Program-made: the position numbers and the translations under genes
The notes under the pieces: model-generated
Database searches by the model: none
Told to the model about the DNA's origin: nothing
The model's input: only the letters and a program-made list of their open reading frames with translations
Origin: Oscillospiraceae bacterium
GTDB lineage: Bacteria; Bacillota; Clostridia; Oscillospirales; Oscillospiraceae
NCBI GenBank assembly: GCA_022799035.1
Contig: JAAWNQ010000024.1
Location: 1-33,086, forward strand
DNA: 33,086 bases
Direction: 5' to 3'
Part shown: positions 26,921-32,146 of the stretch, piece by piece
Layout of the letters: each line of letters starts with the position of its first letter
How positions within the stretch are numbered: position 1 is the stretch's first letter

Positions 26921-27520
26921 TCATATGGCAGAGGGTGGCGTTTCGGTAAACGCTTGCCCTTGCAACAGGGCTCTGCCCCGCTTTAAGAGTTTTATGTAAA
27001 CTTCATCCATCTGCCACTCGTTGGTCAGCTCCAGGAGCCGATCCGCCGGGAGCCAGGCCACTTTGGTGTTCTCCCCCTCCCGGACGGTGAGGGGACTGTC
27101 CCGGTCGGCGGTGAGAAGGTAGGACACGTTCAAATGCTGGTGGGCACAGACATATTTTCCCCGCTTCACATGGCCCCAGACGGGCAGGATCTCCACCGAG
27201 GCGATCTTTTCAGACAGGGGGAGGATGTGCTCCGCCCCCGTCTCCTCCCGGGCCTCCCGGAGGGCCACCGAGAGAAGGTCCCTCTCCCCGTCGGCGTGGC
27301 CCCCGGTCCAGGCCCACACCTTAAAGATATTGTGATGGGCCATCAGGACCCACTCCCCGTCCCTGCTCAGGATAAAACCGGAGGCGGTGATATGGGCAAT
27401 GGGGTTCTGCCGGGTCAGGATAGTGTCAGGAAATCGGTTGACATAATCCAAAATCTGTTCCTTGTCCGCCTCCTCCGCCGGGGTCTGGGGACAATAGGCC
27501 CGGATGTGGTCCAGATACAT
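26921..27520 (-). CDS. Nudix hydrolase
   Basis: A 199-residue Nudix-superfamily pyrophosphohydrolase. The Nudix box GX5EX7REUXEEXGU is complete: GGHADGERDLLSVALREAREETGA spans it from the first Gly, with the metal-binding REAREE. An N-terminal extension of about 45 residues precedes the fold (ITASGFILSRDGEWVLMAHH). Substrate is unknown; its place after thyA-folA suggests housekeeping of nucleotides or a folate-pathway pyrophosphate, which is inference. Its ATG (27520) overlaps the folA stop as TAATG, so it is translationally coupled. Confidence 0.92.
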   Translation of the reverse strand: MYLDHIRAYCPQTPAEEADKEQILDYVNRFPDTILTRQNPIAHITASGFILSRDGEWVLMAHHNIFKVWAWTGGHADGERDLLSVALREAREETGAEHILPLSEKIASVEILPVWGHVKRGKYVCAHQHLNVSYLLTADRDSPLTVREGENTKVAWLPADRLLELTNEWQMDEVYIKLLKRGRALLQGQAFTETPPSAI

Positions 27521-27999
27521 TATTTCACCCTCTCATAGGTCACGTACCGGAAGGTCAGGCCCTTCTCCTCCAAGGGATCCTCCTCCCCGGTCACCTGCCA
27601 GGCCGGATCTTCGTCCAGATCGGGAAACCAGGTGTCGGCGGGAAAGCTGTGGGCGATCTTGGTCACGTACACGGTATCACAGCGGTCCAGCAGGGAGCGG
27701 TAAACGCTCTCCCCCCCGATGACAAAGCTATCCTCGGGAGCCTGGGAGAGAAGGCTCTCCAGATCGTGGTACACCTCCGCCCCCCCTATGTGGAGCTCCC
27801 GGTCCCGGGACAGGACAAGATTCCGCCGCCCCTTCAGGGGCCGGCCGCCGGGGAAGGTGGCCAGAGTCTTCCGGCCCAGGATCACCGGGTGGCCCAGGGT
27901 CAGCTCCTTGAACCGCTTCAGGTCGGCGGAGAGATAGCACAGCTGATCCCCCTCCTTCCCGATGGCCCAGTTCTGATCCACCGCTACGATGGCGTTCAT
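27520..27999 (-). CDS. folA: Dihydrofolate reductase
   Basis: Reduces dihydrofolate to tetrahydrofolate with NADPH. The 159-residue protein has MNAIVAVDQNWAIGKEGDQL at the start, LGRKTLATFPGGRPLKGRRN, and FVIGGESVYRSLLDRCDTVYVT around the NADPH-binding Gly-Gly. The length is standard. ATG 27999 follows GGAGGAGACGCC. It lies 25 bp downstream of thyA, the classic pairing in which FolA regenerates the folate oxidised by ThyA. It is also the target of trimethoprim. Confidence 0.96.
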   Translation of the reverse strand: MNAIVAVDQNWAIGKEGDQLCYLSADLKRFKELTLGHPVILGRKTLATFPGGRPLKGRRNLVLSRDRELHIGGAEVYHDLESLLSQAPEDSFVIGGESVYRSLLDRCDTVYVTKIAHSFPADTWFPDLDEDPAWQVTGEEDPLEEKGLTFRYVTYERVK

Positions 28000-28024: not shown

Positions 28025-28855
28025 TTATATGGCTACAGGAATCTTCCCCTCCAGCTCGTGGTACTGGTAGCCCTCCACGGTAAAGCTGGACTTGGTGAAG
28101 GCGTAGAAATCCGTCACTGTGGGATCCAGGGTCACCCTGGGGGCGGCGTAGGGCTCCCGCTTGAGAAGCTCCTCCACCACGGGGACGTGGCGGTCATAGA
28201 TATGGGCATCGGCGATGACGTGGATCAGCTCCCCCGCCTCCAGGCCGGAGACCTGGGCGAACATCATCAGAAGGGCGGCGTACTGCATCACGTTCCAGCC
28301 GTTGGCGGTGAGCATATCCTGGCTTCTCTGGTTCAAAATGCCGTTCAGCACCTTCCCCGACACGTTGAAGGTCATGGAGTAGGCGCAGGGCTGGAGGGCC
28401 ATGTCCTTCAGGTCATGGTGGTTGAAAAGGTTGGTGACCATCCGCCGGGAGGCGGGGCTGCGCTTCAGGGTGTGGAGGATCCAGTCCACCTGATCCATCT
28501 CCCCCTCGGGAAAGTCGTACTTCACCCCAAGCTGATAGCCGTAGGCCTTGCCGATGGAGCCCTCCTCGTCGGCCCAGGCGTCCCAGACGTGACTTGACAG
28601 GTCGTGGATGCTGTTGGACTTCTTCTGCCAGATCCACAGCAGCTCGTCGATGGCGCTTTTCAGATACTGCCGGCGCACTGTAAGGATGGGGAACTCCTCC
28701 CGCAGGTCATAGCGGTTCACCACCCCGAACAGCTTCACGGTATGGGCGGGGGTTCCGTCCTCCCAACGGGGGCGGACGGGCAGGTCGGTGTCCCAGACCC
28801 CCTTGGAGAGGATATCCCGGCAGTTTTGAAGGAACAGTTGGTCGGCACGGCTCAT
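28025..28855 (-). CDS. thyA: Thymidylate synthase
   Basis: Methylates dUMP to dTMP using methylene-tetrahydrofolate. The 276-residue protein has the catalytic cysteine C157 in MALQPCAYSMTF (many ThyA have PPCH here), RRMVTNLFNHHDLKDM before it, LNQRSQDM with the dUMP-binding RSxD, and IHVIADAHIYDRH with the substrate-binding HxY. ATG 28855 follows AAAAGGAG. It heads the thyA-folA-Nudix operon from a clear promoter. Confidence 0.96.
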   Translation of the reverse strand: MSRADQLFLQNCRDILSKGVWDTDLPVRPRWEDGTPAHTVKLFGVVNRYDLREEFPILTVRRQYLKSAIDELLWIWQKKSNSIHDLSSHVWDAWADEEGSIGKAYGYQLGVKYDFPEGEMDQVDWILHTLKRSPASRRMVTNLFNHHDLKDMALQPCAYSMTFNVSGKVLNGILNQRSQDMLTANGWNVMQYAALLMMFAQVSGLEAGELIHVIADAHIYDRHVPVVEELLKREPYAAPRVTLDPTVTDFYAFTKSSFTVEGYQYHELEGKIPVAI

Positions 28856-28971: not shown

Positions 28972-30255
28972 TTATTTTTCCAGCTCCCAGATATGCCTGT
29001 CCCACCGGGCGGGGAGACAGCTCAGAGCTCCGAACACCCCGATGACCAGGAAAAACAGGGCGGCTCCCGCCCCCTTCCCCGTTCCGAACAGGCCGCAGAG
29101 AAGCCCGCCGGTGGCCTGGGCGGCCATGAAGGGCTCAAAGACCCGATCCACCAGGGCCCCGCCCAGAAGATAGCCCACCGGGATGGTAAAAAACTGCAGG
29201 GCGTTCCGGGCGGAGTAGACCCGCCCCTGCATCTCCAGGGGGATGCTCAGGCGCAGAAGGGCGTCCAGGTTGGCGTTCATCACCGGGATGAACAGCCACC
29301 CCAGCACCGCCCCCAGGCACCAGACCGGGAGCCCCCGGCCCAGGGCCAGCAGGAAATTCTCGGTGCTCATGGAGAACAGCAGGCTGTCGCAGATGACCCG
29401 CACCCGGCTCCTGGGCGCGGGGAGGGCGGCGGCCAGCAGTCCCCCCGCCAGGGAGGCCGCCCCGGCGAAGGTCTCCACCAGCCCCAGGGCCCTCTCCCCT
29501 CCCTTGGGGATCAGGAGCGCGGGGAGGGCGGCGTGGAACATGGAGGCGGTGAGATTGATCACCGCCAGAAAAAGGATCACATCCAACACCCCCCGGTGCT
29601 CCCGGAGGTAGCGCAGACCGCTCCCGGCGGCGGAAAGTACCGTTTCGGACTGTTCCGCCCTCCCGCTCTGCCGGGGAAGGCGGATCCGGAACAGCAGGCA
29701 CACCGCCGCCAGGGCAAAGGTCCCCAGGTCGAAGGCGATGACCGTCCCCAATCCCCCCAGTCCATAGAGGGCGGCGGCGCACATGGGGGTGAGGAGGCTC
29801 ACCAGGGAGCCCGAGAAGGCCCGGAGGCCCCCCACCCGCTGGTAGTGCTCCGGGGGAGTGAGAAGGCTCACCGCCACGTCGGAGGCGGGCTGCTGCACCG
29901 TGTTCATCAGCCCGTTAAGGGCATTTATCAAATAGAGATGCCAGATCCGCAGCGCTCCCATCCACCACAGCCCCAGCACCCCCAGGGTACACGCCGCCGC
30001 CAGGGTATCGCAGGCCAGCATGGTGCGCTTCTTATCCCACCGGTCACTGAGGGCTCCGGCGAAAACGCTCATGACCACGTAGGGGGCATAGGAGCACACC
30101 GTCAGAAGGGCGGTGGTGAGGGCGGAGCCGTACCGGCTGTACGACCACAGCACCAGGGCGAAGCCCGTCATAGAGCTGCCAAGCTGGGACAGGGACTGGG
30201 TGGACCAGAGGATCAGCAGATCCCGGCAATCGGACAAAAATTTCTTGGAAAACAT
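28972..30255 (-). CDS. Major facilitator superfamily exporter (MFS_3/Mef-like)
   Basis: A 427-residue polytopic membrane protein with about 12 helices, of the MFS group that includes macrolide-efflux (Mef) and enterobactin exporters. It starts MFSKKFLSDCRDLLILWSTQ and shows the loop 2-3 signature GALSDRWDKKRTM, plus LRAFSGSLVSLLTP and LEMQGRVYSARNALQF in the second half. The cargo is not readable; drug efflux is the usual role of the group and is supported by an attenuator-like leader. ATG 30255 follows GAGGGAGC by 7 nt, inside a predicted stem. It is monocistronic. Confidence 0.9.
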   Translation of the reverse strand: MFSKKFLSDCRDLLILWSTQSLSQLGSSMTGFALVLWSYSRYGSALTTALLTVCSYAPYVVMSVFAGALSDRWDKKRTMLACDTLAAACTLGVLGLWWMGALRIWHLYLINALNGLMNTVQQPASDVAVSLLTPPEHYQRVGGLRAFSGSLVSLLTPMCAAALYGLGGLGTVIAFDLGTFALAAVCLLFRIRLPRQSGRAEQSETVLSAAGSGLRYLREHRGVLDVILFLAVINLTASMFHAALPALLIPKGGERALGLVETFAGAASLAGGLLAAALPAPRSRVRVICDSLLFSMSTENFLLALGRGLPVWCLGAVLGWLFIPVMNANLDALLRLSIPLEMQGRVYSARNALQFFTIPVGYLLGGALVDRVFEPFMAAQATGGLLCGLFGTGKGAGAALFFLVIGVFGALSCLPARWDRHIWELEK

Positions 30256-30320
30256 GACTTTGCTCCCTCTTTCATTTCATAATGTGAGATGAAAGCGCAA
30301 AGCCTGGGGGACGTGGACAT
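30213..30320 (-). CDS. Upstream ORF 2 overlapping the MFS start (35 codons)
   Basis: ATG at 30320, 8 nt after GGAG, stop TGA at 30215-30213, so it runs across the MFS start codon in another frame. It begins MSTSPRLCAFISHYEMK. Translation of it would disrupt the stem that encloses the MFS ribosome binding site. It may be a second regulatory peptide or chance; there is no family match. Confidence 0.4.
   Translation of the reverse strand: MSTSPRLCAFISHYEMKEGAKSCFPRNFCPIAGIC
30258..30302 (-). promoter_or_regulatory. Stem enclosing the MFS Shine-Dalgarno
   Basis: In the minus-strand RNA, CTTTGC (complement of 30297-30302) pairs with GCAAAG (30258-30263), and CTTTCAT (30289-30295) pairs with ATGAAAG (30269-30275). 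The GAGGGA ribosome binding site falls in the internal loop between the helices, the geometry of translational attenuation. Confidence 0.65.
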
Positions 30321-30347
30321 TCTTTCAGCTCCGAGGCAAGGCGTCCC

Positions 30348-30395
30348 TCAGGCCCTGCGCGGAGCGGAGACAATGCAGAGGGGCAGACGAATCAT
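30348..30395 (-). CDS. Leader peptide of the MFS gene (15 aa)
   Basis: ATG ATT CGT CTG then a TGA stop after 15 codons, encoding MIRLPLCIVSAPRRA. A perfect AAGGAGG (complement of 30403-30409) lies 7 nt before the ATG, stronger than the site of the MFS gene itself. It starts about 40 nt after the predicted transcription start. Downstream, CCTGAGGGACG (30342-30352) can pair either with CGTCCCCCAGG (30303-30313, one mismatch) or, via CTGAGG, with CCTCGG (30333-30338 region), while GCTCCG inside the peptide gene can pair with CGGAGC (30328-30333). Such exclusive pairings are the hallmark of ribosome-stalling attenuators. Confidence 0.68.
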   Translation of the reverse strand: MIRLPLCIVSAPRRA

Positions 30396-30442
30396 GGAAA
30401 ACCCTCCTTCTTTCCCGATTCCGGTCTTTCGCCGGTACGTCC

Positions 30443-30471
30443 ATCATACCACAACTGTCCCCGGTGGGCAA
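30443..30471 (-). promoter_or_regulatory. Promoter of the MFS leader
   Basis: On the minus strand, TTGCCC (complement of 30466-30471), 17-bp spacer, TATGAT (complement of 30443-30448). The start site near 30436 gives a leader of about 180 nt before the MFS ATG. Confidence 0.82.
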
Positions 30472-30503
30472 GAAAAAGGACGTCCCGGTTTCCCGGGGCG
30501 TCC
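30472..30503 (-). terminator. Terminator of ilvE
   Basis: On the minus strand GGACGCCCCGG, GAAA loop, CCGGGACGTCC (complements of 30493-30503 and 30478-30488, one mismatch), then TTTTT. It abuts the -35 of the MFS promoter. Confidence 0.88.
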
Positions 30504-30520
30504 TCTCGAAGACTTATCTT

Positions 30521-31588
30521 TCAGCAGACCTTCACCGTCCACCCGTAGGGATCGGGGAGGATCCCCCACTGGATCCCCGTCAGGGTGTCGTAGAGCTTTT
30601 GAGTCAGGGCGCCGATCTTGCCGCCGCTCACAGTGATATGCTTGCCCTCCCAGCCCATCTCTCCGATGGGGGAGACCACGGCGGCGGTGCCGGTGCCCCA
30701 GGCCTCGTCCAGCTTGCCGGCCCCGGCGGCGTCAAAAAGCTCCTGGGCGGTGATGAGCCGCTCCTCCACCGGGATGCCCCAGCTCTTGATGAGCTCAATG
30801 CAGCTTTTCCGGGTGATACCAGGAAGGACAGAGCCGGTCAGCTTGGGGGTGATGACCGTGCCGTCCACCTGGAACATCACGTTCATGGAGCCCACTTCCT
30901 CGATATACTTCCGCTCCACGCCGTCCAGCCAGAGGACCTGGGCGTAGCCCTTCTCCTCGGCCCGCTCGCCGGCCCGGATGGAGGCGGCGTAGTTGCCGCC
31001 GCATTTGGTGTAGCCCGTACCCCCCCGGACGGCCCGGACATCCTCGTCCTCCACATAGATCTTCACGGGGTTGATGCCCTCCTTGTAATAGGCTCCCACC
31101 GGGCAGCAGATCACGGAGAAGATATAGGTCTGGGAGGCGTGGACCCCCAGGGCGGGGTCGGTGGCGATGATAAAGGGCCGGATATAGAGGCTGGTCCCCG
31201 GCTGGTCGGGCACCCAGTCGGCCTCCAGCTTCACCAGCTGGGTGATGGCGTCCACCACGGTCTGGGGCTCGATGGGAGGGATGCACAGCCGCTGGCAGGA
31301 GGACTGGAGGCGCAGGGCATTCTCCATGGGCCGGAACAGCTGCACCCCGCCGTCGGGGGTACGGTAGGCCTTCATCCCCTCGAAAACCTCCTGGGCGTAG
31401 TGGAGCACCATGGCGCTGGGATCCAGCTCAAAGGGGCCGTAGGGCACGATCCGCCCGTCATGCCAGCCCTTGTCCGGGGCGTAGTTCATGACAAACATAT
31501 GGTCGGTAAAGCTTTGCCCGAAAACCAGGGTCTTGGGGTCGGGCTTGGGCTTCAGGGTCTTGGCCCGGGTGATGGGAAATTCCTGCAT
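30521..31588 (-). CDS. ilvE: Branched-chain amino acid aminotransferase
   Basis: A fold-type IV PLP enzyme interconverting leucine, isoleucine and valine with their 2-keto acids. The 355-residue protein belongs to the longer (type II, eukaryote-like) BCAT group: FGQSFTDHMFVMNY, VLHYAQEVFEGMKAYR, SLYIRPFIIATD, the PLP-lysine region GTGYTKCGGNYAAS, ERKYIEEVGSMNVMF, and EAWGTGTAAVVSPIG. ATG 31588 follows GAGGAGG. It has its own promoter and terminator, and no other ilv gene is adjacent. Confidence 0.95.
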   Translation of the reverse strand: MQEFPITRAKTLKPKPDPKTLVFGQSFTDHMFVMNYAPDKGWHDGRIVPYGPFELDPSAMVLHYAQEVFEGMKAYRTPDGGVQLFRPMENALRLQSSCQRLCIPPIEPQTVVDAITQLVKLEADWVPDQPGTSLYIRPFIIATDPALGVHASQTYIFSVICCPVGAYYKEGINPVKIYVEDEDVRAVRGGTGYTKCGGNYAASIRAGERAEEKGYAQVLWLDGVERKYIEEVGSMNVMFQVDGTVITPKLTGSVLPGITRKSCIELIKSWGIPVEERLITAQELFDAAGAGKLDEAWGTGTAAVVSPIGEMGWEGKHITVSGGKIGALTQKLYDTLTGIQWGILPDPYGWTVKVC

Positions 31589-31622
31589 GATAACGACCTC
31601 CTCGGGGGCTTGATTTTCTCCG

Positions 31623-31651
31623 ATTATACTCCCATTTTTTGTCCTCCGCAA
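31623..31651 (-). promoter_or_regulatory. Promoter of ilvE
   Basis: On the minus strand, TTGCGG (complement of 31646-31651), 17-bp spacer, TATAAT (complement of 31623-31628). The start lies about 30 nt before the ATG, so no T-box leader is present. Confidence 0.8.
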
Positions 31652-31664
31652 GAGGCAATCACAC

Positions 31665-31699
31665 AAAAAAGCCCTCCCATTCCTTTGGAATGGAAGGGC
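31665..31699 (-). terminator. Terminator of the padR operon
   Basis: On the minus strand, GCCCTTCCATTCC, AAA loop, GGAATGGGAGGGC (complements of 31687-31699 and 31671-31683, one T-G pair), then TTTTTT (complement of 31665-31670). Confidence 0.94.
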
Positions 31700-31708
31700 C
31701 GCAAAGCA

Positions 31709-32146
31709 TCAGGAGAGGGTGCCATTGGGGGAGCAGGTGAGGGTGAGAACAAGGGATCTGGTGCTGCTGCCCATCTCAAAGACCGCCGTGCCGGTGGCCT
31801 TGTTGCCGGAGAGAGAGGTGGTTCCATTTTTGTAGCCCCATCCGTTATAGCCAGTACCGGAGATAACGGCCCTTGTTGCTTTTGCGGAAGAACCAGATAT
31901 ATCAAAATATCCCAACAAAGTCGCCTTTCCAATCATTGTTGAGCCCTGATAAAGTTCTGCATCTTTTGTACCATTTACGCTGTTTCCCGCACGGGCAACA
32001 GGTCCATAGGTAATTCTCTCTACCAGATAGAATCCATCCCCTAAGTCAATCACTGTTTCTTTGGACTCTGCCGCAGAAGCCGGAATAACTAAAGCAGTTG
32101 TCAAAACAGCGGCCAACAAAAGGGAAAACAATTTTTTTATTTTCAT
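31709..32146 (-). CDS. Secreted small protein, unknown function
   Basis: A 145-residue exported protein. The signal peptide is clear: MKIKKLFSLLLAAVLTTALV followed by IPASAA, a likely AxA cleavage site. The mature part (about 120 residues) is Gly/Ser/Thr-rich with alternating hydrophobic residues, suggesting a small beta-sandwich (ATRAVISGTGYNGWGYKNGT, STRSLVLTLTCS). No lipobox, sortase motif or enzymatic motif is seen and I do not recognise the family. It begins 2 bp after the stop of the HAAS-like gene, with its ribosome binding site (AAAGGAG) inside that gene, so the three genes form one operon. The coding sequence is less GC-rich than its neighbours. Confidence 0.82.
   Translation of the reverse strand: MKIKKLFSLLLAAVLTTALVIPASAAESKETVIDLGDGFYLVERITYGPVARAGNSVNGTKDAELYQGSTMIGKATLLGYFDISGSSAKATRAVISGTGYNGWGYKNGTTSLSGNKATGTAVFEMGSSTRSLVLTLTCSPNGTLS

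Follow-up and report, generated by a model that had tools for sequence, protein, structure and literature searches.

In the phenicol-inducible attenuators of cat, cmlA, and fexA, as described in the consulted sections of two reports, a ribosome stalled by the drug on a short leader ORF releases a sequestered Shine-Dalgarno (SD) sequence, and the gene controlled is a phenicol acetyltransferase or an exporter (PMC5418344, PMC12190993). The ermC-type attenuators are outlined in excerpts of the former report in similar terms: with the ribosome stalled in a short leader ORF, alternative pairing exposes or hides the SD (PMC5418344). Induction of an MFS or ABC-F resistance gene through an upstream ORF (uORF) is likewise described, in partial accounts, for mef(E)/mel and for the ABC-F leaders of cplR, vmlR, and lsaA. 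Here, we describe a leader with the same elements, in which a short uORF precedes an MFS exporter gene whose SD can be closed by mutually exclusive RNA pairings. It lies within a 33,086-nucleotide stretch of DNA (hereafter, the window) corresponding to positions 1 to 33,086 of contig JAAWNQ010000024.1 of an Oscillospiraceae bacterium (GCA_022799035.1), with leader and exporter both on the minus strand. We consider it reasonably probable that this leader belongs to a translational attenuator family spread through Clostridia that senses drugs acting on the peptidyl-transferase center; induction and the nature of the inducer are what we infer from sequence comparison. The features to which the text refers are as follows.

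30443..30471, minus strand: promoter-like site, TTGCCC (30471-30466), 17 nt, TATGAT (30448-30443), with extended -10 TG; 9/12 matches
30403..30409, minus strand: Shine-Dalgarno AAGGAGG of the uORF
30348..30395, minus strand: uORF MIRLPLCIVSAPRRA plus stop, 15 codons; ATG at 30395, stop codon 30350-30348
30360..30365, minus strand: segment 1 (GCUCCG), within the uORF; pairs with segment 2 or, as GCUCC, with the SD of the exporter
30342..30358, minus strand: segment 1L GCAGGGCCUGAGGGACG, forming the loop side of hairpin 1:2; partner of segment 3 in the form predicted to be ON
30328..30333, minus strand: segment 2 (CGGAGC), partner of segment 1
30213-30320, minus strand: second ORF (ORF2), 35 aa, overlapping the MFS start
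30297..30313, minus strand: segment 3 CGUCCCCCAGGCUUUGC, partner of segment 1L or segment 4
30269..30295, minus strand: inner hairpin CUUUCAU/AUGAAAG between segments 3 and 4; the UUCAU/AUGAA part is from the window fold
30263..30266, minus strand: SD core GGAG of the MFS gene
30256..30263, minus strand: segment 4 GCAAAGUC, which covers the last part of the exporter's SD and extends up to the start codon; 95.4% of cells paired
28972..30255, minus strand: MFS exporter, 427 aa, TIGR00900/Mef-like; PF07690, E 1.4e-22

The exporter passes the Pfam cut-off for PF07690 and falls under every NCBIfam cut-off compared (11 families), including those of TIGR00900 (H+ antiporter subfamily; 165.4 bits, cut-off 319.6) and Mef(A) (NF000245; 92.3 bits, cut-off 675). 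On the latter score we rejected a Mef(A)-family macrolide exporter, and a macrolide is therefore not the obvious inducer. A sequence search of the PDB returned no match. Further 5', the 15-codon ORF behind a perfect AAGGAGG that the initial annotation had reported is present at 30395-30348, with its SD at 30409-30403. The promoter proposed there takes the form of a promoter-like pair with 9/12 matches and an extended -10, and the transcription start (approximately 30436) and the resulting leader length of about 180 nt are predictions. Two such sites occur on both strands of 29800-32000, where 0.5 are expected; among the 140 leaders with enough upstream sequence, a site of at least 9/12 stands just 5' of the uORF in 44, compared with 12 in control stretches further upstream. 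The gene ilvE lies upstream of the leader in the window, with a terminator-like site between the two; in one annotated record, the gene upstream of the leader is a glycosyltransferase gene.

Neither in the window nor in any of 8 related loci did a family of Rfam release 15 reach its gathering score, and the E-value mode gave four weak matches within 30200-30500, all far under the gathering scores. Folded alone, the window leader is modestly better than chance (z = -1.64; 9/200 shuffles equally good). We therefore compared relatives, and significance rests on that comparison. With the exporter protein as query, at E values up to 1e-60, 8 of 16 genomes of the genus and 19 of 300 of the family gave matches; since three of the 19 family matches are the same genomes as genus matches, this yielded 24 loci, including the window's own. 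The same leader precedes 22 of the 23 testable exporter homologues found in this way by protein alone. The sole homologue without it is L022, and L025, whose MFS start is off the contig, was left out. One of the outcomes that the initial annotation had named as refuting, a lack of conservation of the peptide or stems in relatives, is thus not what we observe: the leader recurs in these homologues, and its helices co-vary.

The converse search, using the RNA pattern without protein information, found at least 118 stretches in named genomes and two in viral contigs. An exporter homologue lies downstream in 118 of these 120 loci (among the matches listed), in four cases as matches in two pieces (L072, L073, L079, L129); two loci that end within about 90 nt past the leader (L094, L095) were counted as untestable. 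Lachnospiraceae, Oscillospiraceae, Ruminococcus, and unplaced Clostridia account for most hosts among 80 of the 118 titles; Erysipelotrichaceae, Christensenellaceae, and Treponema are represented by one assembly each. A culturable commensal with both leader and exporter is Ruminococcus callidus ATCC 27760 (L031). A blastn search of plasmids and phages with the leader gave no match, and searches of viral contigs by CAT or MFS protein confirmed none, even though two had come up there with the RNA pattern.

The leader is not confined to exporters. A covariance model built from the 22 protein-found leaders (R1) had matches in samples from the order (36/394 genomes), the class (22/391), and the phylum (3/299), the window's genome being included in each; a second model of 41 rows (R2, from alignment A3, with L221 and L196 left out) matched in 26 of 207 and 12 of 196 genomes from overlapping samples. 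We inspected 70 model-found places, including the window's own (place G355:C32 stands outside the 70). MFS genes follow the leader in 49, and other genes in 21, counting among the latter one MFS remnant behind an intact leader (L196). The others comprise CatA-like acetyltransferases (six), a Cfr methyltransferase (one; L214, 599 bits, passing the NCBIfam cut-off of 530), a Lsa-family ABC-F protein (one; L241, 763 bits, passing the NCBIfam cut-off of 750), CD3324-family small HTH proteins (six; the four scanned are above the cut-off, and L232 and L233 are assigned by likeness), SAM methyltransferases (three), ceramidase-like proteins (two; L170 is under the Pfam cut-off), and an alpha/beta hydrolase (one). 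No erm gene is found downstream among the 70 places.

These assignments differ in firmness. The CatA-like genes are at L192, L193, L194, L216, L217, and L220; the frame of L217 is broken, and it was left out of the family scan. The three proteins scanned (L192, L216, L220) score 202-211 bits and do not reach the CatA cut-off of 270, and that of L192 matches PF00302 with an E value of 4.3e-57. A second acetyltransferase-like gene follows in L192 and L193; for the one in L192, the best model is Vat (245 bits, cut-off 300). Beside Cfr in L214 there is a Lsa-like ABC-F frame, which covers only the last two thirds of the model. The weakest leader matches, L235 (E 0.0015) and L241 (E 0.0035), have E values calculated per genome in sets of 207 and 196 genomes and are doubtful alone; L241 gains support because a complete ABC-F resistance gene begins exactly at its end. 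Resistance genes that lack it are also common: the leader was not detected at the nearest CatA-like plasmid relative (L210), at 12 other CAT loci (L198-L209), or around the cfr(C) (L224) and cfr(B) (L225) plasmid loci, and searches for further CAT leaders in the families of G889 (2/20 genomes) and G731 (1/18) recovered only those already known.

Alignment of the relatives points to three helices. In alignment A1, 87.2% of cells are paired in helix 1:2, 94.8% in 1L:3, and 95.4% in 3:4, with 15, 28, and 6 cells, respectively, changed on both sides. The covariation scores were matched by 0, 0, and 2 of 500 shuffles, which ignore relatedness. Counted by further pair types, 1:2 is no better than shuffles (355/500 as high), and 3:4 is matched by 40/500. 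Pairing drops to 22.8-54.2% once the helix partners are displaced by one, two, or three columns. For each helix, the own-partner duplexes of the 22 protein-found leaders, a set compiled without selection by RNA, are better in energy than all 5000 permutations, a result repeated in 15 non-redundant and 60 random leaders; the own partner is the single best partner in only 8, 9, and 5 of the 22 rows (1:2, 1L:3, and 3:4). The three helices exclude one another, in agreement with the mutually exclusive pairings suggested at the outset. Within the window's free fold, CCTGAGGGACG (30352-30342) pairs with 30306-30303 and 30313-30308. The final stem that had been described as enclosing the MFS ribosome binding site, GGCUUUGC (30304-30297) with GCAAAGUC (30263-30256), takes in the last part of the SD (GGAG, 30266-30263) together with the spacer to the ATG at 30255. 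This stem is taken from the relatives' alignment, where it is seen, but it is absent from the window's own free minimum-energy fold, which closes the exporter SD by other pairings. RNAalifold adds a further SD closure, GCUCC:GGAGC.

From these pairings we propose the following mechanism. With no ribosome on the uORF, the SD would be closed by 3:4 or by GCUCC:GGAGC, the latter closing the 1L:3 arm. A ribosome that reaches the uORF stop would cover 1L, so that 3:4 could form and the SD would remain closed. A drug-stalled ribosome with its P-site about three to four codons 5' of segment 1 would instead cover GCUCC and leave 1L free to capture segment 3, whereupon the SD would open and the exporter would be made.

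Fold calculations on 142 leaders are consistent with this switch. A ribosome footprint of -14 to +15 around the P-site was blocked at each uORF codon, numbered from the GCU of segment 1, and the cost of opening the SD-AUG stretch was computed; the energies ignore pseudoknots and co-transcriptional order. The mean cost is 8.3 kcal/mol without a ribosome, 4.8 with the P-site at codon -4, 4.2 at -3, 8.1 at -2, and 10.5-11.0 from -1 onward (10.9 at +4), and the minimum falls at codon -4 or -3 in 133 of the 142. When the stretch from the GCU of segment 1 to the SD was shuffled (426 shuffles), the mean steps fell from 4.15 and 6.78 kcal/mol in real leaders to 0.28 and 0.14, and the share of leaders with both steps above 2 kcal/mol was 81% for real and 5% for shuffled ones. 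Chimeras of two leaders behave much like real ones (5.4 at -3 vs 9.2), a control that says little because the conserved halves still pair. A cruder measure, the probability that the SD GGAG is unpaired, also peaks at -3 (0.36 vs 0.14 without a ribosome). For the window itself, the values of 10.4 (no ribosome), 5.8 (-3), and 8.5 kcal/mol run in the right direction and are weaker than the mean; one of its three shuffles gave 7.8, 6.6, and 9.2 kcal/mol. The window's region of low cost is wide (5.3 kcal/mol from codon -6 through -4, 5.8 at -3), and its SD-unpaired probability at -3 is low (0.02). The predicted stall in the window has I8 (codon -3) or C7 (codon -4) in the P-site. Ribosome-mediated attenuation of exporter translation, the central proposal of the initial annotation, thus has strong comparative support from the conserved SD, uORF, and spacing, the exclusive, co-varying helices, this computed fold switch, and the occurrence of the leader in front of CatA-like, Cfr, and Lsa genes as well.

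Which drug might stall the ribosome can be approached through the codons around the predicted arrest. After duplicate removal, 193 leaders gave 183 distinct ones (L156 and L164 were left out). Codon -4, which is position -1 if the P-site is at -3, encodes Cys in 113, Ala in 33, Ile in 11, Thr in 8, Met in 8, and others in 10. A small residue (C, A, T, G, S) is present there in 157 of the 183, and Ala, Ser, or Thr in only 42. Codon -3 is Ile in 119 and never Gly (0/183), and Gly at -2 occurs in 6/183, in agreement with the reported Gly effect. According to excerpts of the published work, chloramphenicol arrest is best with Ala at position -1 and less so with Ser or Thr, and large side chains there can clash (PMC11832420); linezolid arrest likewise favors Ala (PMC8987054, in part). 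The residues at codon -4 thus resemble contexts of chloramphenicol and linezolid arrest, although the dominant Cys is not a documented context there. A tree of 95 MFS exporters requires at least 13 changes between small and other residues at -4, and the small-residue constraint is therefore not strict. Four of six CatA-like leaders carry Gly at codon -4 (MK[RQ]GLD), and the CatA-like switch is weak (L192, 4.3 at -3 vs 5.9 without ribosome; L193, 6.7 vs 8.1).

Given the undocumented Cys, the state changes, and the CatA-like Gly, we regard the inducer class as likely, namely drugs that bind the peptidyl-transferase center, and phenicols as favorite only. Within that class, an inducer of phenicol or oxazolidinone type, for which a small residue at -1 is the context, appears most likely, given that CatA-like, Cfr, and Lsa genes also stand behind this leader. 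The initial annotation had supposed that the inducer may be a new one. We judge a wholly new inducer less likely than a known peptidyl-transferase drug class, yet Cys at the predicted stall is undocumented.

A variant that we consider rather unlikely keeps the attenuator and assigns the stall to a context-free drug of early elongation (a lincosamide, pleuromutilin, or streptogramin A) or to an unknown natural inhibitor, the uORF serving just to place the ribosome. The wide variation at codons -6 and -1 would fit, as would the Vat-like and Lsa genes found with the leader. However, codons -4 to -2 are constrained, and a ribosome at codons -7/-6, the first codons of a 12-codon uORF, leaves the SD closed (8.6-8.8 kcal/mol).

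Stalling might also be caused by an uncharged tRNA (Ile, Cys, or Val) during amino-acid starvation. The frequent Ile at -3 (119/183) and Cys at -4 (113/183) could be read in this way; a ribosome awaiting Ile would hold codon -4 in its P-site, a position at which the SD is almost equally open (4.8), and ilvE is upstream in the window. But both positions vary among relatives (codon -3 can also be Asp, Ser, Leu, Glu, or Asn, among others, and codon -4 Ala, Ile, Thr, or Met, among others), a terminator-like site separates ilvE from the leader, and the downstream genes are exporters and drug-resistance genes, which leaves this explanation very improbable. Amino-acid control linked to ilvE was rejected, as the sequence 5' of the leader differs by eye in most relatives.

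The uORF itself bears on whether a peptide is needed at all. It usually has 12 codons with the pattern M x x C I x x A P C/R K/R V/A, and 15 codons in 5/8 of the window's genus. In the leaders of Cfr, Lsa, the six CD3324 genes, and the two SAM methyltransferases examined, the RNA motif is read, as scored, in a different frame (L H A K P, for instance, in place of A P C K V), and some uORF starts among them are uncertain. The 3' half of the peptide therefore seems to be conserved for the RNA and not for the peptide. Together with strong base conservation in segments 1, 1L, and 4, these other-frame readings might suggest an RNA switch that binds a ligand or protein, with the uORF incidental. Against this stand the SD-like 4-6mers found 5' of the uORF in 136 of 142 leaders versus 167 of 1134 control stretches, a count that is favored because uORF starts had been picked partly by SD strength; the spacing of exactly 7 codons between uORF start and hairpin in 102/142; and the observation that, in those other frames, the open uORF still extends to the hairpin. 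We think such a switch highly unlikely. The second ORF noted initially does exist and overlaps the MFS start, but it is not conserved: a similar SD-led ORF overlaps the start in only 19/142 leaders, on which count we rejected it as a functional part, and it probably arose by chance. Transcription attenuation, through which the leaders of mef(E)/mel (PMC4335068) and cplR (PMC10201436) and several other ABC-F genes are described, in part, as working, has almost no probability in our estimate, and we rejected it because a U-rich run right after the start codon occurs in only 1/142 leaders and no terminator-like site was called within the window leader on the leader strand.

Returning to the attenuator reading, a broader and more tentative possibility is that the leader is a plug-in sensor of peptidyl-transferase inhibitors in Clostridia. 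It may have been moved before exporters, CatA-like, Cfr, and Lsa genes and could mark unrecognized resistance or response genes (CD3324-family HTH proteins, SAM methyltransferases, ceramidase-like proteins, and alpha/beta hydrolases), with L-[CAT]-I-|-[AV] at the stall site as a new drug-arrest context. If so, commensal Clostridia would share one cheap ribosome-based drug sensor for an exporter family and sometimes for Cfr, Lsa, or CatA-like genes, all on only under drug. The leader would then mark silent inducible resistance that routine screens may miss and would offer a handle on unknown resistance genes, a form of guilt by leader. It also raises a testable question: can chloramphenicol, linezolid, or a natural inhibitor arrest the ribosome when the penultimate residue is Cys?

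The erm leader peptides presumably differ in sequence from the peptide found here. We found no description of this leader in the open-licence literature as far as consulted. The nearest studied clostridial case found is cplR of C. difficile, which, in the sections consulted, has another uORF and a terminator besides translational attenuation (PMC10201436). According to partial accounts, both mef/mel and cplR use transcription attenuation, whereas the leader here is without a U-run (PMC4335068, PMC10201436). The uORF consensus sequences given in the same source for CplR (MR[I/M]), VmlR (MIN), and LsaA (MAGN) (PMC10201436) also differ from MxxCIxxAPC[KR][VA] here. Nearest in logic and target, on the accounts consulted, are the attenuators of cat, cmlA, and fexA. 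Compared by description, peptide and layout differ from theirs: the switching segment, 1L, belongs to the loop side of the first hairpin and shares bases with the 3' end of the uORF, and a single RNA family stands before MFS, CatA-like, Cfr, and Lsa genes. On the best reading of the comparison, these leaders form a family of classical translational attenuators that is new and widespread and that precedes an unusual selection of genes.

Two bases of the upstream open reading frame that precedes the exporter vary little among the 183 distinct leaders compared. They flank the border between codons -3 and -2, counted back from the GCU of segment 1 in hairpin 1:2, and despite varying residues the U ending codon -3 is unchanged in at least 153 leaders and the G beginning codon -2 in 178. 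The corresponding ATT|GNN border in the window lies at 30372-30371 (-). Inspection by eye recognized no pairing partner for the conserved U and G, which coincide with the predicted border between the ribosomal P-site and A-site.

The leader and exporter are flanked on the same strand by the following features:

27520-27999 (-), dihydrofolate reductase-like gene, just downstream of the exporter
28025-28855 (-), thymidylate synthase-like gene, just downstream of the exporter
30484-30497 (-), short terminator-like hairpin, between ilvE (30521-31588) and the leader promoter

Elsewhere, the leader and exporter occur together on two IMG/VR contigs (L144 and L145), which are candidate viral sequences. 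At another locus, L196:1501-1753, the leader is intact and the exporter gene is deleted except for its C-terminal end. The exporter homologue 3' of the leader matches as two separate pieces at L072, L073, L079, and L129, reflecting either a broken gene or an assembly error.

Several other types of gene are also found behind this leader. In six genomes it is followed immediately by a gene for a small CD3324-family helix-turn-helix (Mor-like) protein of 87-91 residues (L221, L230, L232, L233, L235, and L240). SAM-dependent methyltransferases of about 260-275 residues lie 3' of the leader at L218, L231, and L238, as do ceramidase-like proteins (PF04734) in two genomes (L239 and L170, the latter matching below the cut-off). 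One genome, G355, contains five matches to the leader.
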